NCBI GenBank assembly: GCA_902786815.1
Contig: CADADV010000004.1
Location: forward strand, 1-64,000
DNA: 64,000 nt
Reading direction: 5' to 3'
Origin: an uncultured Eubacteriales bacterium
GTDB taxonomy: Bacteria; Bacillota; Clostridia; Peptostreptococcales; Anaerovoracaceae
Shown here one piece after another: positions 24,215 through 41,368 of the stretch (its first letter is position 1; each line of letters starts with the position of its first letter). The position numbers and the translations under genes are program-made. The notes beneath the pieces are model-generated. The model saw only the letters and a program-made list of their open reading frames with translations. It searched no databases and had not been told where the DNA came from.

Positions 24215-24228
24215 CAGAATCGGTCTTA

Positions 24229-24315
24229 TTCTGCTTCCCTACGCCGGTATGATCCGGATCAGGTTATGAGGGTATCCGGGACGAACCCGGGCTCTCAGCT
24301 TTCGCTCCCCTAGCT
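24229..24315 (-). ncRNA. TPP riboswitch (THI element)
   Basis: The minus strand carries the conserved thi-box blocks in order: GGGGAGC, GCTGAGAG, ACCCTCATAACCTGATC, and CATACCGGCGTAGGGAAG. These form the TPP aptamer. A terminator hairpin follows at 24191-24214, so control is most likely by transcription termination when thiamine pyrophosphate is plentiful. The genes controlled are the thiamine-binding protein and the ThiXYZ-like ABC transporter. Confidence 0.96.
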
Positions 24316-24323
24316 TTGTACCT

Positions 24324-32164: not shown

Positions 32165-33634
32165 TCAGTACCCCAGTTTCTCTCTTATTTCGTTCGCCGT
32201 TTCGTTGATTACATGATTCTCGACTGTGAGATCCTGCCAGCCTTCGTACCTTTCCCTGCGTCTTTCGAAGATGTTTTGTACGCCCTCTGCCCTGCTAATC
32301 GGGCGGCCGCCTGCCGGAAGCTTGTCCAGGTCTCTTCTGATGTACACGATCCGGCCGTTGCTTCGGAGCAGATTTCTGTTTTCCTCGCGTTCGACAACGC
32401 CGCCTCCTGTGGCTATGACCTGCCCGCCCTCCTTGGCGAGGGATTCGATGACCGCGGTCTCATATGTTCGAAACACATCCTCTCCCTCGGATAAGATGAG
32501 TTCTTCAGCAGTCTTCCCATAGGTTTCCTGCAGGCACGCATCCGAATCCCTGAACTGTTTGCCCGTAAGCTCCGCCAGCTTTCTTCCAATAACGGTCTTT
32601 CCGGATCCGGGCATGCCGATGAGGACGATGTTTTCCTGCTCGCGCCGGATCATTTCGCAGACAGCATCGATGATGTCTGTATGGTCTTCTCCGGTGAAGA
32701 GCAGGCCCGCGTACGCTGCCTGAGCAACCAGCATTTCCAGACCGGAAGCTGCCGGGATTCCCAGTCTTTCGGCTTCCAGGATCAGCTCGCTGCGCAGGGG
32801 GTTATAGATAAGGTCGAATACGCCGCAGCACGCTTCGAACTGCTCCGGATGGACAGGACTGACCCCGTTGTTCGGATACATTCCTACAGGCGTGGCGTTC
32901 ACCAGTATTTGCGCGTCAAAATGTTTATCGAGATTCTCATAATTGTCAGGACCCTTTCGCGAAATGATCCTGATTTCGACTGCTCCGCAGTCCTCCAAGA
33001 CTTTTCTCACTGTGCCCGAAACGCCCCCGCTGCCAAAGATAAGACACTTTTTCCCTTTGATATCCACTCCTGATTTCTCAACGGTGTATTTGAACCCGTC
33101 ATAATCTGTATTGTATCCTGCGAGAGTTCCATCCGTTCGCTTTACAATGGTATTGACGCTGTTTACGGCCTTTGCTGTTTCGGAGACTTCATCCAGGTAC
33201 TTCATGACGGAACGCTTGTACGGCATCGTGACGCTGGCGCCTTTCAGCGGGAATGCCGAAAAGAAACCATCCAGGTCATCCGGCTCAAGATCGATCAGTC
33301 CATATGCATATCCGCCCAGAGCCTCGTGGACCTCCGGCGAAAGACTGTGTCTCAGCCCCCTGCCTAAAAGCGCGTACTCGAATCTCCTGTCTTGCTGGTA
33401 GTTCCTGCTGCCTTCCATAATGGCTTCGATCACTCCGATGACATAGTTTCTTCTGTCTTCCTCAAAAAGGCCGGCAAAAGAATCAATCTTCTTTTTTTCT
33501 CTCGCCGCATCCAGTACCGGAAGTCCTCTTTCCTGCTTGTACTTTCCGATTTCCGCAGCGACATCCAGCCGCTCGTCAAGCAGCCTGGCGATTTCCGCGT
33601 CGATCCGGTCTATTTCTTTCCTGTACTGATCCAT
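32165..33634 (-). CDS. Trifunctional chorismate mutase / shikimate dehydrogenase / shikimate kinase
   Basis: A 489-residue single frame holding three enzymes. Residues about 1-85: AroQ-type chorismate mutase (RIDAEIARLLDERLDVA, IGKYKQERGLPVLDAARE, matching the Arg/Lys/Asp active-site pattern). About 88-335: shikimate dehydrogenase (HSLSPEVHEALG, VTMPYK with the catalytic Lys, VNTIV, GYNTDYDGF, NADP loop GSGGVSG, NATPVGMYP). About 335-489: shikimate kinase (GMPGSGKTVIG Walker A, FRDSDA, ATGGGVV, RPIS lid). The start at 33634 shares one base with the aroC stop (TAATG) and has GGAGG upstream. It closes the aromatic operon. I see no frameshift or internal stop. Confidence 0.92.
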   Translation of the reverse strand: MDQYRKEIDRIDAEIARLLDERLDVAAEIGKYKQERGLPVLDAAREKKKIDSFAGLFEEDRRNYVIGVIEAIMEGSRNYQQDRRFEYALLGRGLRHSLSPEVHEALGGYAYGLIDLEPDDLDGFFSAFPLKGASVTMPYKRSVMKYLDEVSETAKAVNSVNTIVKRTDGTLAGYNTDYDGFKYTVEKSGVDIKGKKCLIFGSGGVSGTVRKVLEDCGAVEIRIISRKGPDNYENLDKHFDAQILVNATPVGMYPNNGVSPVHPEQFEACCGVFDLIYNPLRSELILEAERLGIPAASGLEMLVAQAAYAGLLFTGEDHTDIIDAVCEMIRREQENIVLIGMPGSGKTVIGRKLAELTGKQFRDSDACLQETYGKTAEELILSEGEDVFRTYETAVIESLAKEGGQVIATGGGVVEREENRNLLRSNGRIVYIRRDLDKLPAGGRPISRAEGVQNIFERRRERYEGWQDLTVENHVINETANEIREKLGY

Positions 33635-34704
33635 TACGACCTCCATTCCAGCAACGCATCGTAAACAGCAATCGCTACCGCAGCCTCAATACACGGCACC
33701 GCTCTCGGCACGATGCACGGATCATGTCTTCCCTTCACGATCAGTTCTGTGTTCTCCATCGTCTCAAGATCTACCGATTCCTGCCTGATCCCGATCGACG
33801 GTGTAGGTTTCATTGCCGTTCTCACAACGATCGGCATCCCGCTGCTGAGTCCGCCCAGGATCCCGCCGTGATGGTTGGTCCTGGTGACGATCCTGCCATC
33901 CTGAACGAGGAACGGGTCATTGTTCTCCGACCCCTTCATACCTGCCGATGCGAAACCGTTTCCGAACTCGATTCCCTTGACAGCCGGCACCGCGAAAACA
34001 GCTTGGCTGATCAAACCTTCCAGACTTCCGAATATAGGCTCTCCCACACCGACGGGCATTCCAAACACCTTGCACTCAATGACTCCGCCAATGGAATCTC
34101 CAGCGCTTCGGACCTCTTCAATGACAGCCTTCATTGTTTCTGCAGCCTCTTCCGATACTGTTGCAAAATCAATCCCTACCAGGCTGTCCGCTTCCATATA
34201 CGCATCCTTTACGTCCCCGATGCGTTCAATATGGGCTTTGACCGAAATCCCCTCTGCAGCCAGCCATTCGCAGCAAAGCGCTCCGGCAATGCAAAGCGCT
34301 GCGGTCATCCGCCCTGAGAACGGACCTCCTCCCGACGGGATTTCCCCGTATTTCACCCACGCGGGATAATCTGCGTGAGATGGTCTGGGAACGCTCTTGA
34401 TGTTCTTGTAATCAGCCGGTCTGATGTTCTTGTTGTATATCACCGCTTCGATGGTTTCCCCCGTCGTGCTCCCGTCCTTGACGCCGCTGATAAAAACAGG
34501 TTCATCCGTTTCTTTTCTCGGCGTTGACCAGGGGTTTTTGCCGGGTGCTCGTCGCGCCATGAAAGCGTCCAGAAATTCCCTGTCCACAGGCATGCCCTGT
34601 TTGATTCCGCTGATTCTCACACCGATTTTCTCTGCGTGGGATTCCCCGTAGATCTGTACTTTGATGCTTCGTCCGAATTGTATTCCGTCGTTTGCGTTCA
34701 TCAT
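33634..34704 (-). CDS. aroC: Chorismate synthase
   Basis: A 356-residue FMN-dependent enzyme that forms chorismate from EPSP. It shows the N-terminal IQFGRSIKVQIYGESHAEKIG, the RPSHADYPAWVKYG motif, SGRMTAALCIAGALC, and HHGGILGGLSSGMP. Reduced FMN is required. The start overlaps the aroA stop by 4 bases (ATGA), with a second ATG directly behind it. It is part of the continuous minus-strand aro operon. Confidence 0.97.
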   Translation of the reverse strand: MMNANDGIQFGRSIKVQIYGESHAEKIGVRISGIKQGMPVDREFLDAFMARRAPGKNPWSTPRKETDEPVFISGVKDGSTTGETIEAVIYNKNIRPADYKNIKSVPRPSHADYPAWVKYGEIPSGGGPFSGRMTAALCIAGALCCEWLAAEGISVKAHIERIGDVKDAYMEADSLVGIDFATVSEEAAETMKAVIEEVRSAGDSIGGVIECKVFGMPVGVGEPIFGSLEGLISQAVFAVPAVKGIEFGNGFASAGMKGSENNDPFLVQDGRIVTRTNHHGGILGGLSSGMPIVVRTAMKPTPSIGIRQESVDLETMENTELIVKGRHDPCIVPRAVPCIEAAVAIAVYDALLEWRS

Positions 34705-35912
34705 TCTGTCAAAACCCTTCCTCCCAGGCTCTTGTAATCTTCAAAAAATCCCGGATATGATTTTCTCACCGCCTGACTGCCGATGATCTCAACGGGACCG
34801 TCACAGAGCAGTGCCCCGATGGAGGCCATCATGACGATCCGGTGATCATTGAACGAATCGATCGGCGCCAGGGGCCTGCGTTTCCTGTCTCCCGTACCAA
34901 CAATGTGGATTTCGTCTTCTGTTGCTTTTGCATTGCCTCCCAGATGATTGACTGTCGTCACCACGGATTCGATTCTGTCGCTTTCTTTCATTCTGAGTCT
35001 CTTCCCGTTGGTGATCTTCGTCAGTTCTCCGTCTTTTCTGGCCATCGCGAGGAGCGCGATCTCCGGGACCAGATCCGGCGTCTGGCCCACATCGACGATC
35101 CATTCGCCGGGTCTGCTGTATGTATCGATGAGCTCTTTTATTTTCCTGTCCCCCTGGACAGAATCCTCTTTCAGGCCAATGCAGCTGATCTTCGCTCCGA
35201 GCGCGTCTGCAACCAGCCAAAACGCACCGTTCGACCAGTCGCCTTCTATATCCTCAAGCCCGAATGAACCGAGCTCGTATTTCTGGTTCCCTTTGATTCT
35301 GAAGATGCTCTCAGTCTCACCGCAATTCGCTTCAACAATAATGTTAGCCTGTTTGAGAGCTTCCGTTGTCATCTCCACATAAGGTCTCGACTGGAGTCCG
35401 CCGCTCACACAGATCTCGCTGTCCTCATGCAGGAGCGGCAGCGCAAAAAGCAGTCCCGAAATATACTGGGAAGATACGTCGCCGGGCAGCGTGAACTTAC
35501 CGCCGCGGAGCCTCCCTGAAATATGAATCTTGCCGTTTTCTTTATCGATCGTGCATCCATGTCCACGGAGTTGTTCTTCCAGCTCCTTCAGCGGCCGGTT
35601 CATCAACCGTTCGGAGCCCTCGAGACAGGCTTCGGAAGAAAGCACAGCGCTCAACGGCAATAAAAACCGCAGGGTCGATCCGCTTTCCCTGCAGTTCAAA
35701 ACCGGCGTTCCTGCCGCATCCCGTTCTGAAACATCGCGCAGCGCGAGCAGGCATTCAGTTGTGGCTTTCAGATCCTCAGACAGATTCTCGCAGACACCCT
35801 GGATATCCAGTCCTGACAGGCAGGCACAGATCAGCAGCCTGTGAGCCGCGGATTTTGAAGGGATTGCTTTGATCGTTCCGCCTGAAGGCGGACGGGTTAT
35901 GATCGTCTTCAT
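34701..35912 (-). CDS. aroA: 3-phosphoshikimate 1-carboxyvinyltransferase (EPSP synthase)
   Basis: A 403-residue enzyme that adds the enolpyruvyl group of PEP to shikimate 3-phosphate. Motifs include PSKSAAHRLLICACLS near the N-terminus, NCRESGSTLRFLLPLSAVL, and the C-terminal LRMKESDRIESV and FNDHRIVMMASIGAL. The NCRESGSTLRF block has Glu and Ser where the common class I form has an alternate spacing, so herbicide class is not called. GAGGAG precedes the ATG; the start overlaps the aroB stop by 4 bases. Confidence 0.96.
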   Translation of the reverse strand: MKTIITRPPSGGTIKAIPSKSAAHRLLICACLSGLDIQGVCENLSEDLKATTECLLALRDVSERDAAGTPVLNCRESGSTLRFLLPLSAVLSSEACLEGSERLMNRPLKELEEQLRGHGCTIDKENGKIHISGRLRGGKFTLPGDVSSQYISGLLFALPLLHEDSEICVSGGLQSRPYVEMTTEALKQANIIVEANCGETESIFRIKGNQKYELGSFGLEDIEGDWSNGAFWLVADALGAKISCIGLKEDSVQGDRKIKELIDTYSRPGEWIVDVGQTPDLVPEIALLAMARKDGELTKITNGKRLRMKESDRIESVVTTVNHLGGNAKATEDEIHIVGTGDRKRRPLAPIDSFNDHRIVMMASIGALLCDGPVEIIGSQAVRKSYPGFFEDYKSLGGRVLTE

Positions 35913-37000
35913 AGAAACTCCTCAAGTCTTGCCATACTCATTTTTTCAATTGCGCATTTTCCGATGCGCTCCGGGATCACGACATAGATCCCGTCGTCTG
36001 TGCTTTTCTTGTCCATGGCGATGTTCTCCATCAAAGCATCCTTGTCCGGAAGATTCGCCTGATTGCTGTCTTTGCCTGTGGGCAGGCCGAAGATTTTCAG
36101 TGCCTGCTCCAGTTTTCCGGATGCTCCCGCATCACACCTGCCGGCTCGTTCGGCGGCCTGTGTCATCCTCATCATGCCGATGGCAACCGCCTCTCCGTGA
36201 TATAAACGGTAGTTTGTAGCCTTTTCCACTGCATGCCCGACTGTATGCCCGAAGTTCAAAAGCCGCCGCTTTCCTCCTTCGAATTCATCCTCAGCAACCA
36301 CATCCGCTTTGATTTCGACGCAGCGTGAAATCAGTTCCTCCAGTTCCTGCTGGATGGCGCTGCTATATTCGCCGAGGTCTTTGATCTGTTCCAGTATCTG
36401 CGGATCCTCGATCATCCCGTATTTTATGATCTCTGCGAACCCGCTGCAGTAGTCTCTCATGGGCAGTGTTCCAAACACCTCCGTGTCGATGATGACCAGT
36501 GCAGGCTGGTGAAATGCTCCTGCCAGATTCTTTCCCTGCGGAAGATCTATGGCGGTTTTACCTCCAACAGAGCTGTCCACTGCTGCCAGAATGCTCGTAG
36601 GCACCTGCACATAATCGATGCCCCGCATATATATGGCGGCAGCAAGGCCTGCCATATCCCCGGTTACTCCGCCGCCCAGGGCGATCACAAGATCTTCTCT
36701 GGTGAGTCTGCAGTCCGCAATAAATCCAAGTATATCAAATAAAGTCCTTGCGTTCTTGTTTTCCTCACCTGCCGTGAAGACAAATGTTGCCGTTTCAAAT
36801 CCTGAACGGCTGAGTGATTCTGCCAGTTGATCCCCGTAATATCCGCCGACATTGCTGTCAGTTACGATGACGGCTCTTCTTCCCGGGCGAGCCTTGGCGA
36901 TCAGTTCACCTGCATCGGCAAGCAATCCCCCGCCGATCAGCACGTCGTATTCCTTCCCTGTCCTTACCTTGATTCGTTTCATCTCTCTATTCCGGTTCAT
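35909..37000 (-). CDS. aroB: 3-dehydroquinate synthase
   Basis: A 363-residue NAD- and metal-dependent enzyme that cyclises DAHP to 3-dehydroquinate. Typical sequences are VIVTDSNVGGYYGDQL, LVIALGGGVTGDMAGLAAAIYMRGIDYVQVPTS, DSSVGGKTAIDLPQGKNLAGAFHQP and NFGHTVGHAVEKATNYRLYHGEAVAIGM, with the zinc-binding Glu and two His. Two starts are possible: 37000 (2 bases after the tyrA stop) and the sixth codon downstream at 36982, which matches family N-termini better; both have weak ribosome binding sites. Confidence 0.95.
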   Translation of the reverse strand: MNRNREMKRIKVRTGKEYDVLIGGGLLADAGELIAKARPGRRAVIVTDSNVGGYYGDQLAESLSRSGFETATFVFTAGEENKNARTLFDILGFIADCRLTREDLVIALGGGVTGDMAGLAAAIYMRGIDYVQVPTSILAAVDSSVGGKTAIDLPQGKNLAGAFHQPALVIIDTEVFGTLPMRDYCSGFAEIIKYGMIEDPQILEQIKDLGEYSSAIQQELEELISRCVEIKADVVAEDEFEGGKRRLLNFGHTVGHAVEKATNYRLYHGEAVAIGMMRMTQAAERAGRCDAGASGKLEQALKIFGLPTGKDSNQANLPDKDALMENIAMDKKSTDDGIYVVIPERIGKCAIEKMSMARLEEFL

Positions 37001-37001
37001 T

Positions 37002-37850
37002 TTAGTTTTCGCCGGTCCCGTCTATCTCAACCTTTATTCTGCTGCCTTCTGCCAGGATTTCCTCGAGCTTTTCTCTGTCGCCCCTGCGGATGCAGTCCCT
37101 GTACTCCTGCAGACTCTCAATCAGGTGATCCAGTTCCTCCGCCAGATTGTCCCCGTTGTCCAGGAACAGTTCGCTCCACATCACCTCATTCAGCCGGGCA
37201 ACCCTGGTCAGATCCCGGTAGCTTCCGGCACTGAATCCTTTGTGTTTCTTCGCTCTGGGGCTCTTCATATAGGCGTTGGATACCACATGGGCAAGCTGCG
37301 ATGTGAATGCAATCACCTGATCGTGTTTCTCAGCAGTGGTAATGCTGATGCTCCCGAACCCCGCGGGAGAAAGCATCTCCTTGATCCTGGAGAATTCATC
37401 GATATCATCGTATCTCTCCGGCACGATCACCATAGGCTGGCCGTCGAAGAGGTCTTCCCTGCTGAATTTGTATCCCGAGCTGTGTCTTCCTGCCATGGGA
37501 TGTCCCCCGACATAGGTAAAGCCATATTCTTTCGCGATCTTGAAACAGGGTTCGCACACCGAGCGCTTCACGCCGCAGCAGTCGATCACCAGTGTGTCCT
37601 TCGAAATGTATTTTGCCATTTCCTGCAAGTATTCTACCGCTGCCTGCGGATAGACGGCCAAAAGCAGGAGATCTACGTCCCCAATGTTATCTGCGGTGAG
37701 TTCCTCCTCTATGTCCTCTGCAAGCAGGGCAAGCTGTGTGATCCGGCTGTCCCTGTCGTATCCGTAGATTTTCCAGTCTTCCGACCGTTCATAGGATTTC
37801 ACAAGAGAGCCTCCTATCAGACCAAGGCCCACGACACCAAGTGTTTTCAT
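37002..37850 (-). CDS. tyrA: Prephenate dehydrogenase
   Basis: A 282-residue NAD(P)-dependent enzyme that oxidatively decarboxylates prephenate to 4-hydroxyphenylpyruvate, the tyrosine branch. The Rossmann motif GVVGLGLIGGSLVKS opens the protein, and GGHPMAGRHSSGYKFSREDLFDG contains the catalytic His. There is no fused chorismate mutase or ACT domain, unlike many TyrA proteins; mutase activity is supplied by the trifunctional gene at 32,165. GGAGGATTAAT precedes the ATG, one base after the aroF stop. Confidence 0.94.
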   Translation of the reverse strand: MKTLGVVGLGLIGGSLVKSYERSEDWKIYGYDRDSRITQLALLAEDIEEELTADNIGDVDLLLLAVYPQAAVEYLQEMAKYISKDTLVIDCCGVKRSVCEPCFKIAKEYGFTYVGGHPMAGRHSSGYKFSREDLFDGQPMVIVPERYDDIDEFSRIKEMLSPAGFGSISITTAEKHDQVIAFTSQLAHVVSNAYMKSPRAKKHKGFSAGSYRDLTRVARLNEVMWSELFLDNGDNLAEELDHLIESLQEYRDCIRRGDREKLEEILAEGSRIKVEIDGTGEN

Positions 37851-37851
37851 A

Positions 37852-38859
37852 TTAATCCTCCAACGCGATGCTTCTGATCTTCATCACTTTTTTCGCAACT
37901 GTATCGAACTGCTCCGGTGTGATAGACTGTGCCCCGTCACACAGAGCCCTTGCCGGATCGTTGTGCACCTCGATCATGACCCCGTCTGCTCCGGCAGCCG
38001 CGGCGGCCATCGCCATAGGTTCCACGTATCTGGCCCGCCCAGTGGCGTGGCTCGGATCAATGACGACAGGCAGGTGGGTCAGTTCCCGGAGTGCCGGAAT
38101 TGCCGACAGATCCAGCGTGTTCCTTGTAAACGTTTCAAATGTGCGGATGCCCCGCTCACAGAGAATGACATTTTCATTTCCTTCAGACATGATATACTCT
38201 GCGCTCATGAGCAGTTCCTTGAAAGTGTTGGCAAGTCCCCGTTTGAGGAGAATCGGTTTCCTGGTTTTGCCCACTTCTTTCAGAAGTTCGAAATTCTGCA
38301 TGTTTCTGGCGCCGATCTGGATCATGTCCACATCCTCAAACAGCGGCAGGTGGCTCGCATTCATGATTTCGGTAACGATCGGCATGCCGGTTTCCTTCTT
38401 CGCTTCTGCCAGCAGTTCCAGTCCTTCTGCCCGCATCCCCTGGAAATCATACGGTGATGTCCTTGGCTTAAATGCTCCGCCTCTCAAAATGGATGCTCCG
38501 GATGCCTTGACTGCTTTGGCGATTCCTTTGATCTGACTCTCAGATTCCACCGAACATGGTCCGGCGATCAATGCGAAATGTCCGCCACCTACCTTCACAT
38601 TTCCAACTTCTATGACCGAATTTTCAGGATGGAACTTCCTGTTTGCCTTCTTGAATGATTCACTGACCCTTGTGACGGATTCTACGATATCAAGAGCCAT
38701 GACCAGCTCTTCATCTACTTCTGATGTGTCTCCCACGAGCCCGAGAACTGTCTGGTACTTTCCCTTGGAGATATGGACTTGAAGACCCTGATTCTCGAAC
38801 CATTTGATCAGTTTGTCCTGTTGTTCCTTTGTCGCGTTCTGTTTCAGTACTGTAATCAT
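37852..38859 (-). CDS. aroF: 3-deoxy-7-phosphoheptulonate (DAHP) synthase, type I beta
   Basis: A 335-residue enzyme that condenses PEP and erythrose 4-phosphate, the entry step to aromatic synthesis. An N-terminal ferredoxin-like regulatory domain (about 1-75) precedes the barrel with LIAGPCSVES, RGGAFKPRTSPYDFQG, ARNMQNFELLKEVGKT-KPILLKRG and PVIDPSHATGRA. The N-terminal domain in this subfamily can bind aromatic products for feedback inhibition, which would add to the leader-peptide control at 39,799-39,957. GGAGC-type site upstream of the ATG. Confidence 0.95.
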   Translation of the reverse strand: MITVLKQNATKEQQDKLIKWFENQGLQVHISKGKYQTVLGLVGDTSEVDEELVMALDIVESVTRVSESFKKANRKFHPENSVIEVGNVKVGGGHFALIAGPCSVESESQIKGIAKAVKASGASILRGGAFKPRTSPYDFQGMRAEGLELLAEAKKETGMPIVTEIMNASHLPLFEDVDMIQIGARNMQNFELLKEVGKTRKPILLKRGLANTFKELLMSAEYIMSEGNENVILCERGIRTFETFTRNTLDLSAIPALRELTHLPVVIDPSHATGRARYVEPMAMAAAAAGADGVMIEVHNDPARALCDGAQSITPEQFDTVAKKVMKIRSIALED

Positions 38860-38890
38860 TTTTATCCTGCTCCCTATCTATATTGTTTCG

Positions 38891-39769
38891 CTATATTTTC
38901 TCGCTGTAGCTTCCCAGATACTCCATTCTATCACATAAACCGTCCACTCTTTCAATCACGTCTATAAAATCTTCTCGGTAGACGGAACTTTCGAAGTCAA
39001 AATAGAACATGAATTCGAACTCTGTGTTCGGTAAAGGCCTGCTTTCAAGCTTAGTAAGGTTGTATCCTGCCTCTGCAAACTCCTTGATGACAGCGTAGAG
39101 ACTCCCTGCCTTGTGCGGAAGGACTGCCATCAAACTGGTCCTGTCTGAGCCCGGGTATATTTCCAGCTCCTTGCTGATGCAGATAAATCTGGTGTAATTA
39201 CTGTCGTTATCCTGAATGTTCCTGTCCAGCAATTCAAGCCCGTACAATGCGCCGCATTCTCTTGATGCGATCGCTGCCTTCCCTCCGCTGTCAGATTCAG
39301 CCACTAGCTTTGCCGCTGCCGCTGTGTTTGAACATATGATGCGTTCCGCCCCGGGATAATGGTCCAGGTACTTTTCACATTGTGCCAGTGCCTGTTCATG
39401 GGAGTATACCTCGCTGATATCTTCTCTGCGCGTCCCGCTTTTGACCAGCATGCTGTGATCTATTTTGACCCTCACGCTTCGCACGATATAGAATCTATGC
39501 TCTTTCATCAAATCGTAAATCTGATTGACCGATCCGGCGGTGCTGTTTTCTATCGGCAGGATCCCATATCTGCAAAGGCCTTTTTCGATTGCACTGAAGA
39601 CCCCTTCGAAATTCTTAAAGAACAGTATGCTTGGGTTCCTGAAGATCCTGTTTGCAGCCTCCTGGGAATAGGACCCCTCTGTTCCCTGACACGCAACATT
39701 TGAACCATCCTCAAGGAGCCTGGGTGAGTTCTCGATTGCTTCTTCAATGTGCATTCTGATATTTTCCAT
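38891..39769 (-). CDS. pheA: Prephenate dehydratase
   Basis: A 292-residue enzyme that converts prephenate to phenylpyruvate, the phenylalanine branch. The catalytic domain carries ACQGTEGSYSQEAANRIF, YGILPIENSTAGSVNQIYDLM and SNYTRFICISKE; a C-terminal ACT domain (TSLMAVLPHKAGSLYAVIKEFAEAGYNLTKLESRP) binds Phe for feedback control. No chorismate mutase is fused here. It is the first enzyme gene after the leader peptide and terminator, with AGGAGGCGG 8 bases before the ATG. Confidence 0.95.
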   Translation of the reverse strand: MENIRMHIEEAIENSPRLLEDGSNVACQGTEGSYSQEAANRIFRNPSILFFKNFEGVFSAIEKGLCRYGILPIENSTAGSVNQIYDLMKEHRFYIVRSVRVKIDHSMLVKSGTRREDISEVYSHEQALAQCEKYLDHYPGAERIICSNTAAAAKLVAESDSGGKAAIASRECGALYGLELLDRNIQDNDSNYTRFICISKELEIYPGSDRTSLMAVLPHKAGSLYAVIKEFAEAGYNLTKLESRPLPNTEFEFMFYFDFESSVYREDFIDVIERVDGLCDRMEYLGSYSEKI

Positions 39770-39798
39770 TTGATCCGCCTCCTGTTAAAAACGAAAAA

Positions 39799-39827
39799 AC
39801 ATGGTGTCTGCCGGGCAAACACCATGT
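39799..39827 (-). terminator. Attenuator terminator upstream of pheA
   Basis: A perfect 9-bp stem (ACATGGTGT / ACACCATGT on the minus strand, 39819-39827 with 39799-39807) is followed by a T6 tract and then by the pheA ribosome binding site. It lies between the Phe/Tyr-rich leader peptide and pheA. A competing pairing is possible between GGTAAAC just after the leader stop codon (39870-39876) and GTTTGCC in the loop (39814-39820). Confidence 0.88.
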
Positions 39828-39876
39828 TATCAACCTTTGTTATCTATCTAACCCAGATCACCAACAATCGTTTACC

Positions 39877-39957
39877 TCAGCACAAATCACCAGCGCTATA
39901 ATAAAAGCCCTGGAACGTAAAGCCGAAGTATGCTGTTGTCAGTTCTCTTCTGATCAT
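39877..39957 (-). CDS. pheL: Aromatic leader peptide of the phe/aro operon
   Basis: A 26-codon ORF with a strong GAGGAG site 6 bases before its ATG at 39957. Residues 10-20 read YFGFTFQGFYY: four Phe and three Tyr among eleven codons. It lies between a promoter (39984-40011) and the terminator at 39799-39827, directly ahead of pheA, the classic arrangement for ribosome-mediated attenuation. When Phe- or Tyr-tRNA runs short, ribosomes would stall here and allow read-through into pheA-aroF-tyrA-aroB-aroA-aroC-fusion. The symbol is given by analogy to enteric pheL; the mechanism is inferred from layout and composition. Confidence 0.85.
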   Translation of the reverse strand: MIRRELTTAYFGFTFQGFYYSAGDLC

Positions 39958-39983
39958 TTTCTTCTCCTCAAATAACTGTAACC

Positions 39984-40011
39984 ATTTTATACCTTACTGT
40001 GTAAAAGTCAA
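39984..40011 (-). promoter_or_regulatory. Promoter of the aromatic operon leader
   Basis: On the minus strand TTGACT (40006-40011) and TAAAAT (39984-39989) are spaced by 16 bases. The transcript would start about 20 bases before the leader-peptide ATG. Confidence 0.65.
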
Positions 40012-40025
40012 GATGATTTCTTTGA

Positions 40026-40856
40026 TTATCTATGTGCTCTTTCTTTATCAACACTCCACTTATCGTTCCAGATCGCATGTATCTCTGCTCTCTTTGCGGG
40101 GCGGAGAAGATACAGTCCCCAAATGCCGGCTATTACGTCAACTAATACTGCAAGCATCAATGCGCTCGTAGCTATTTCATTGGCCATGATTCCGTTTACC
40201 AATGAAGGGTCCGTTGTAAAGCACATATAGTCATATATACCGTGCATGAAGATCGGAATCAATATGTTTCCGGTCCTGAGATATGCAGCTATAAAAAATA
40301 TTCCTGCGAAGATCGTGGCGATGCCCTGCGCAATTCCCATCTGGATGCTCGCACCGTTCGCAATGTTTCCAATGTGCATAAGACCGAATACCAGGGCTGA
40401 TAGGAGCACAAGAATGCCCACTCTTTTTTCGCTCTTGAAATATCTCATTCCGATAGGAACAGTAACTCCTCGGAATATCGTCTCTTCGTAAAAACCTGCT
40501 GCAATTGCCATGGCAAAAGCTGCTATGGTAGGTTTGAAATAAAAGCCGCTGCCTGCAAGATTCACGAAATATGCTCCGAAGAACTTAAATGCAAAAGCTA
40601 ACCATACGAACGCGAGTCCTGTCGCAAGATGACTTGTCTTGAATACACCTTTGAACTCAGGAGCAAACCACCTTGTGAAGGCAAGCATAAACAGTACAGC
40701 GAGAACGCTGGATACCAGGTTAGATACTGCATCTGAAAGACCGATCAGCCCGGGTATGGATAAAACTACTAAAGCGAGAGCTGCTGCCAGGATCATAGCG
40801 ACAAGCGGCGCTTTCTCGCATAATGTGTGTTTTCTTGATTTTGCTTTCTTTCTCAT
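40026..40856 (-). CDS. CPBP-family intramembrane glutamic protease
   Basis: A 276-residue polytopic membrane protein with about eight hydrophobic segments. The motif FYEETIFRGV (EExxxR) and later GLMHIGN and FMHGIYDYM (His residues of motifs 2 and 3) define the CPBP/Abi/Rce1 family. Members cleave membrane peptides, protect from self-made bacteriocins, or act as membrane chaperones. No bacteriocin gene lies near it, so its role is unknown. AAGGAGAGG precedes the ATG. The gene is transcribed toward the aromatic-operon promoter. Confidence 0.85.
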   Translation of the reverse strand: MRKKAKSRKHTLCEKAPLVAMILAAALALVVLSIPGLIGLSDAVSNLVSSVLAVLFMLAFTRWFAPEFKGVFKTSHLATGLAFVWLAFAFKFFGAYFVNLAGSGFYFKPTIAAFAMAIAAGFYEETIFRGVTVPIGMRYFKSEKRVGILVLLSALVFGLMHIGNIANGASIQMGIAQGIATIFAGIFFIAAYLRTGNILIPIFMHGIYDYMCFTTDPSLVNGIMANEIATSALMLAVLVDVIAGIWGLYLLRPAKRAEIHAIWNDKWSVDKERAHR

Positions 40857-41012: not shown

Positions 41013-41368
41013 TGGTGGAGATGACGGGAATTGAACCCGTGTCCGAAAGCATTTTCACCGGAATTTCTCCGAGCGCAGTTTCCGATTTATAATTCGCCCT
41101 TCTGCCCGTCCGGAAACGAACTGACCGAAAGACTATCCCGTTAGTCCCTTATGCGGCCGGGATCACGCATAAGGTTTTCCTGCATGTTTGACGTCCGGCA
41201 CTGGGCCTGCAGGTGAACTCAGGCGGACGCGCGGGGCAGAACTAAGCTGCCAGTGCGAAATTATTGTTAGTTTTTGCGTTTATCTTTAACGGCCCTTTTT
41301 TACGAAGACTGGGCGACTTCGGCTCGCTTATCCAGTTTCCACACCCCCGTCGAAACCAGTGCATCCCC
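41012..41368 (-). ncRNA. ssrA: tmRNA (ssrA)
   Basis: A 357-nt transfer-messenger RNA. The 5' end is GGGGATGCACTGGTTTCGAC, the usual start of the tRNA-like domain; the 3' end has the T-arm GGTTCAATTCCCGTCATCTC with an encoded CCA. The resume codon GCA begins a tag read as A-K-T-N-N-N-F-A-L-A-A followed by TAG, ending in the standard ALAA protease signal. It rescues stalled ribosomes with SmpB, whose gene lies 355 bases upstream on the same strand. Confidence 0.96.

Follow-up and report, generated by a model that had tools for sequence, protein, structure and literature searches.

What controls the transcription of the aromatic amino acid operon that begins with pheA in the 64,000-nucleotide stretch of DNA analyzed here (the window), and what is the role of the short open reading frame that precedes it? 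In enteric bacteria, the pheL and trpL leaders are ribosome-mediated attenuators in which a leader ORF with control codons, a set of alternative hairpins, and a terminator lie before the first gene. A preliminary description of the window, made from the sequence, proposed an arrangement of this type with ribosome stalling at Phe or Tyr codons. On the basis of the computational analysis described here, the pheA leader very probably acts as a ribosome-mediated transcription attenuator that responds to the charging of tRNA-Phe and tRNA-Tyr.

The genes downstream of the leader are as follows.

38891..39769, minus strand: pheA, prephenate dehydratase, 292 aa, with no chorismate mutase match
37852..38859, minus strand: aroF, DAHP synthase
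37002..37850, minus strand: tyrA, prephenate dehydrogenase
35909..37000, minus strand: aroB, 3-dehydroquinate synthase
34701..35912, minus strand: aroA, EPSP synthase
33634..34704, minus strand: aroC, chorismate synthase
32165..33646, minus strand: chorismate mutase/shikimate dehydrogenase/shikimate kinase fusion (CM/aroE/aroK), the last gene of the operon

Together they constitute a seven-gene aromatic operon (39769..32165, minus strand) with the order pheA-aroF-tyrA-aroB-aroA-aroC-(CM/aroE/aroK). The operon had been described as complete; its seven genes are indeed present, but the dehydroquinase is not among them. A type II dehydroquinase is encoded on another contig, outside of the operon, and no type I dehydroquinase was found in the genome. 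Note that the PheA of the window, at 292 aa, is without the N-terminal extension of its relatives; in the 29 relatives in which pheA was located the reading frame measures 332-542 aa, mostly 380-410 aa. The chorismate mutase may have moved between genes, as suggested by the shortness of PheA and by the three-domain fusion that closes the operon. No match to trpE was observed in the genome of the window, and trpD gave one weak match below the cut-off, the assembly being 91.9% complete. The organism may be without tryptophan synthesis, and phenylalanine and tyrosine may be the main amino-acid products of the operon, which fits a leader devoid of Trp codons.

The leader element itself is composed of the following features.

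Ending at 40026: gene for a CPBP-like membrane protein (weak NCBIfam matches), flanking the leader element on the side opposite pheA
39984..40011, minus strand: promoter-like site, TTGACT-16-TAAAAT (consensus scan, 10/12 matches)
39964..39969, minus strand: Shine-Dalgarno sequence of the leader ORF, GAGGAG (sequence)
39877..39957, minus strand: leader ORF of 26 codons, MIRRELTTAYFGFTFQGFYYSAGDLC* (sequence; rarity in the genome; recurrence in relatives)
39898..39930, minus strand: control codons 10-20, Tyr Phe Gly Phe Thr Phe Gln Gly Phe Tyr Tyr
39922..39930, minus strand: arm 1, UACUUCGGC, codons 10-12 (fold; 9 bp possible with 39881..39873)
39869..39881, minus strand: arm 2, overlapping the stop codon (folds)
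39814..39876, minus strand: antiterminator (fold, -20.0 kcal/mol before synthesis of the terminator 3' arm)
39798..39828, minus strand: intrinsic terminator of 14 bp with the loop CCG, followed by TTTT (terminator scan)

The promoter, the ribosome binding site, the 26-codon ORF, and the run of seven aromatic codons in eleven that had been reported previously were all found in place on the minus strand, the promoter being weak when taken alone (2 promoter-like sites in a 600-base stretch versus 1.0 in shuffles). The leader RNA would start near 39977 and, if terminated, would be about 180 nt long. Codons 10-20 include four Phe and three Tyr codons; the number of Trp codons is 0. The terminator ahead of pheA is likewise present, but its stem is 14 bp long rather than the 9 bp given before. 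The predicted fold of the leader RNA has a z-score of -4.9, and 0 of 200 shuffles were equally stable.

How unusual such a leader is within its own genome was computed from the upstream regions of 597 predicted genes, covering 863 kb or about 39% of the assembly. The leader rule called for a Shine-Dalgarno score of at least 4/6 and an ORF of 10-50 codons within 400 bases upstream, and counted Phe, Tyr, and Trp in the best 12 residues. At least five aromatic residues in 12 were observed in 14 of the 597 upstream regions, at least six in two, and at least seven in one, namely the pheA leader. Scanning of the same 863 kb for leaders specific for other amino acids produced eight raw matches, none of which was convincing on reading. 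As a separate observation, upstream at L222:8043-9219 (minus strand) a 26-residue aromatic-rich ORF, MKNHKFFAWATVFCFLMTMYTGYKKA, is followed by a terminator-like site and then by a malic-enzyme-like gene; this ORF may encode a small membrane protein.

The recurrence of the leader was examined in a family sample of 148 genomes, the window's own among them. In 25 of the 29 relatives with a located pheA, aroF shares the contig and strand of pheA and is found 3-6 kb upstream of it (hand tally); in the remaining four, aroF and pheA are on different contigs or aroF is without a match. Directly upstream of pheA in these 29 relatives, in which pheA is not known to be the first gene, the cut of five aromatic residues is reached once, and the sole ORF that does so is Trp-rich, not Phe/Tyr-rich. 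Upstream of aroF, 89 of the more than 120 listed family places were taken (the 29 best relatives and 60 more), 87 of which were usable, and a leader ORF by the rule was present in 58 of the 87. The corresponding count for the named loci, the best 80 of 586 relatives, is 54 of 80. After removal of four duplicates and one short region, the pooled set contained 163 distinct upstream regions (the window's pheA and 162 aroF), and in 110 of these an ORF preceded by a Shine-Dalgarno sequence carries at least five aromatic residues in 12.

A terminator is positioned between the leader and the gene in 100 of the 110 leaders, the window included, versus 2.3% of dinucleotide shuffles (20 each); in the other 10 it is absent by the scan. 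The 53 regions without a leader by the rule include L126, in which the leader is present and only the Shine-Dalgarno cut-off failed. They also include, by virtue of their aroF upstream regions, L040 (identical in sequence to L151) and L130, in both of which pheA is the first gene and is preceded by a leader and a terminator, as in the window. Both sampled members of the window's genus (L075 and L091) carry the leader. Loss of the ORF or of its aromatic codons from relatives that retain the terminator had been named in advance as the pattern that would speak against attenuation. The comparison, counted from the regions with an ORF, did not go against it: the ORF recurs with its Phe and Tyr codons, together with the terminator, and does so in the pheA-first relatives as well.

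Among the named loci, with L130 and L151 counted, the leader is present in 55 of 70 Bacillota, in 0 of 9 Bacteroidota, and in the one MAG titled Treponema. Leaders occur in clusters on the AroF tree (FastTree), where 11 changes are counted. The AroF of L125, on a contig titled Treponema sp., is 74% identical to that of the window, and the gene is accompanied by a Tyr-rich leader and a terminator; either gene transfer or a misassigned bin would account for this. A scan of IMG/VR with PheA revealed no relatives.

For analysis of the switch, the window RNA was folded up to the terminator loop, that is, without the terminator 3' arm, and the ribosome edge was set 13 nt downstream of the first base of the A-site codon, an assumed footprint. 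With the ribosome held at Tyr 20, the antiterminator (39876..39814, -20.0 kcal/mol) forms, and with the ribosome at the stop codon it is lost. The antiterminator is built from three helices, in which 39876..39869 pairs with 39821..39814, 39866..39862 with 39829..39825, and 39860..39855 with 39836..39831. Its 5' arm in the folding is GGUAAACG at 39876..39869, within arm 2, which a ribosome at the stop codon hides, and on the other side it uses both the top and the base of the terminator 5' arm. The GGTAAAC/GTTTGCC pairing suggested in the preliminary description is there, but it forms only the distal part of this longer antiterminator, which also engages the base of the terminator 5' arm. The exact switch, called unsure in that description, becomes clearer once the unmade 3' arm is excluded from the folding. 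As the ribosome edge advances in 3-nt steps between 39941 and 39875, the pairing probability of the terminator 5' arm is 0.71-0.78, with one dip to 0.66; it is 0.36 at an edge of 39872 and 0.25 at 39866, the edge expected for a ribosome at the stop codon.

In each of the three states folded for the window, the terminator is more stable than the antiterminator as soon as its 3' arm is present, and thus the order of events must decide between the two mutually exclusive structures, as in known attenuators. With the 3' arm unmade, the antiterminator is also predicted to be favored in the untranslated leader (0.64), and therefore neither a protector helix nor silencing of the leader in the absence of translation can be regarded as secured. 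The pairing of arm 1 with 39881..39873 is a possible protector helix (helix 1:2) in the folding model. By simple duplex energy, the window antiterminator is not better than shuffles (z of 0.64), and the pairing of the window ranks at 0.88 among 25 partner swaps.

The same behavior was sought in 84 nonredundant leaders drawn from the 100 with terminators, which were treated as independent beyond a simple redundancy filter. The measure employed was the pairing probability computed on RNA lacking the terminator 3' arm, compared with shuffles and with partner swaps; it replaced simple duplex energies, which gave a weak signal in 100 cases (median z of -0.68, with 17% below -1.645). For a ribosome positioned on the first aromatic codon, the mean probability is 0.733 versus 0.522 for shuffled upstream sequences, and 81 of the 84 leaders lie above their shuffle mean. 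With the ribosome at the stop codon, the mean is 0.394, the value being below that of the first-aromatic-codon state in 74 leaders and not below it in 10. The corresponding mean with no ribosome is 0.477, below the first-aromatic-codon state in 79 of the 84 (0.47 over 100 relatives). When the ribosome is placed at the last aromatic codon, the probability is 0.727 versus 0.571 for partner-swapped arms and is higher in 77 of 84 leaders (p = 2e-13), although only 14 of the 84 rank at 0.96 or above among their partner swaps. The drop that accompanies movement of the ribosome to the stop codon is 0.33 versus 0.08 in shuffles, and is larger in 69 of 80 (p = 4e-12). All three pheA-first leaders contain UGUUUGC in the terminator arm, and the sequence with which it pairs, which differs in its letters, is found at the stop codon or immediately beyond it. 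Placing the ribosome at the stop codon lowers the pairing probability in L040 from 0.57 to 0.0; the decrease in L130 is slight, from 0.62 to 0.53, yet its minimum-energy fold changes.

These results bear on the first of three other explanations for the locus, namely that the ORF encodes a functional small hydrophobic peptide and that the hairpin is a simple terminator whose read-through is constant. Such a peptide would agree with the recurrence of an ORF that is aromatic-rich in frame. The peptide sequences drift across the relatives, however, while the Phe/Tyr content stays; 100 of the 110 leaders have a terminator separating the ORF from the enzyme gene; and the antiterminator pairing both beats swapped partners in 77 of 84 leaders and depends upon the position of the ribosome. 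A small functional peptide is accordingly considered very improbable.

An equally slim chance is given to the second, in which an incidental ORF lies in a 5' region that is a T-box, another riboswitch, or an attenuator bound by a protein. What lends it substance is the presence elsewhere in the genome of five T-box matches (L202-L206), all below the Rfam gathering score and two of them near 80 bits. The genes beside them read, from their translations, as thrS, ileS, leuA, and an acyl-CoA ligase, and the weakest match is at what reads as an oxidoreductase locus. None of the five is located at the aromatic operon. In the searches made for RNA families, no Rfam family reaches the gathering score at the leader, the T-box included, permissive searches gave only chance-level matches, and an Rfam search of 16 relative loci returned a single tRNA. 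The curated Rfam cut-off, it should be noted, misses all five T-box matches of this genome. Elsewhere in the window, Rfam identifies a TPP riboswitch (24219..24321, minus strand) and a tmRNA (41013..41368, minus strand).

Covariation was evaluated in a set of 19 similar, Oscillospiraceae-type leaders, hand-picked from named loci in the range L141-L201 (alignment A2). In this set CUAUUACUUUUU, which runs across Tyr-Tyr-Phe-Phe codons, pairs with AAAAAGUAAUAG, in which the stop codon lies, and the bases that follow pair with the terminator arm. The resulting control hairpin, between the Tyr/Phe codon run and the stop-codon region, is 12 bp long (A2 columns 44-74), and 9 of its 12 pairs never vary. 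In the terminator, 8 of 12 pairs are changed on both sides, a value matched by 0 of 500 shuffles; the count of further pair types in these 19 leaders is not above that of shuffles (481/500). The antiterminator and control hairpin are 97% paired, with a covariation score reached by 3 of 500 shuffles, and two-sided changes occur in 3 of 11 antiterminator pairs and in one hairpin pair. Covariation in the Oscillospiraceae-type set thus moderately supports the antiterminator. No covariation support was observed for helix 1:2 in the 19 leaders, where it is 75% paired (137/500 shuffles).

The codon content of the leaders is distinctive. Of the 190 possible amino-acid pairs, Phe plus Tyr is the most enriched across the 163 regions. 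Both amino acids occur in 108 of the 110 leaders and Tyr only in two, with Trp present additionally in 15. The aromatic share of the core is 0.64 in frame versus 0.14-0.15 in the other frames, a contrast that is overstated because the cores were picked for their aromatic content in frame 0. Shuffling of the core letters yields 2.9 aromatic residues of 12, as compared to the 7.7 observed. The last and least probable of the other explanations, that an RNA structure requiring many U residues yields the aromatic richness incidentally, draws on the U-richness of Phe and Tyr codons (core T fraction of 0.495) and on the pairing of CUAUUACUUUUU in the codon run with AAAAAGUAAUAG, but is countered by these letter shuffles, by the frame comparison even with its bias, and by the rank of Phe plus Tyr above other U-rich combinations, and it merits scarcely any credence. 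With respect to Trp codons, they accompany 6 of 15 family genomes with trpD and 7 of 43 without it, a difference that is not significant (Fisher p = 0.077) in a tally made by hand, in which one of the 15 trpD genomes was scored from fragments below the cut-off.

An ORF with a ribosome binding site ahead of the operon, control codons for its end products, a terminator, and, by computation, an exclusive antiterminator that depends upon ribosome position were thus all found at the locus. The proposal of stalling at Phe or Tyr codons made in the preliminary description is supported by the computed recurrence of leader and terminator and by the antiterminator pairing. From these we infer translation of the leader ORF, its coupling to transcription, stalling, and regulation in the cell. 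According to the proposed mechanism, a ribosome would translate the leader ORF directly behind RNA polymerase. When both tRNAs are charged, it would reach the stop codon, cover the RNA to about 39867, and hide GGUAAACG; the terminator (39828..39798) would then form and transcription would end before pheA. If either Phe-tRNA or Tyr-tRNA were in short supply, the ribosome would stall within codons 10-20 and leave GGUAAACG free to pair with UGUUUGCC of the terminator 5' arm, and the polymerase would read through to the seven-gene operon. The same outcome is predicted whichever of the seven codons causes the stall, and the peptide would therefore act as a Phe-or-Tyr sensor. That both amino acids would be sensed is suggested by the codon content, with the two occurring together in 108 of 110 leaders.

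The leader resembles enteric pheL and trpL in its product-specific control codons, its alternative hairpins, and the terminator before the first gene. It differs from them in its Clostridia host, in its mixture of Phe and Tyr codons, in the combination of much of the common shikimate pathway with pheA and tyrA in one operon, and in the lack of a matching Rfam family at the locus.

Firmicutes had been set apart in the preliminary description as relying mostly on T-boxes or protein regulators, a contrast that is too strong given the published leader-peptide attenuators for branched-chain genes in S. aureus, where an ilv-leu attenuator peptide is described (PMC5794164), and for hisS*/hisZ in bacilli, which are preceded by a his leader (PMC2965389). 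Both are likewise cases of amino-acid attenuation in Firmicutes, but they concern branched-chain amino acids or histidine and belong to the Bacilli. Attenuators in Actinobacteria (PMC1262725) and a branched-chain case in Listeria (PMC5864092) are also on record. Closer in content are the candidate uORFs with Phe and Tyr at shikimate metabolism genes in Fig. 6b of PMC6429828, from five genomes, one of them Clostridium novyi. They share with the window leader the Phe/Tyr content and the shikimate association, but in that figure legend they stand as candidates, with no switch tested there and the host of the two uORFs not stated in the text. The uORFC-13-1 motif at Acholeplasma aroF, for which attenuation has been proposed, combines a Phe uORF with an intrinsic terminator (PMC8632094). 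The motif has 24 representatives, from Acholeplasma and environmental sequences only, and at least one Phe codon is noted. Compared by description, it is similar to the window leader in having a Phe uORF before an aromatic gene and a terminator, and Tyr codons are not mentioned in the portion describing it. The open-access literature, judged by titles, abstract openings, and selected passages, yielded no description of this leader in Anaerovoracaceae or Oscillospiraceae. The kind of element is thus already known, with Phe/Tyr candidates in print; added here are the switch, its recurrence, its place before pheA where pheA comes first, and its spread.

Taken more broadly, there is about an even chance that these leaders represent a fast-drifting attenuator family spread over Clostridia, in which a single peptide would gate much of the aromatic pathway in response to Phe or Tyr, in a genome where other amino-acid genes retain T-boxes, and whose control codons, in the Oscillospiraceae-type clade, would form a hairpin with the stop-codon bases such that sensor and lock are the same bases. 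Classical leader-peptide attenuation, which is often taught as proteobacterial, is indicated here for the aromatic pathway across a wide range of Clostridia, as is the ability of one peptide to sense two end products. The leader offers a concrete sensor open to testing in the cultured relatives Aminicella lysinilytica and Eubacterium pyruvativorans, and it presents a case for asking why T-boxes would serve other pathways in a lineage that employs a leader peptide for one.
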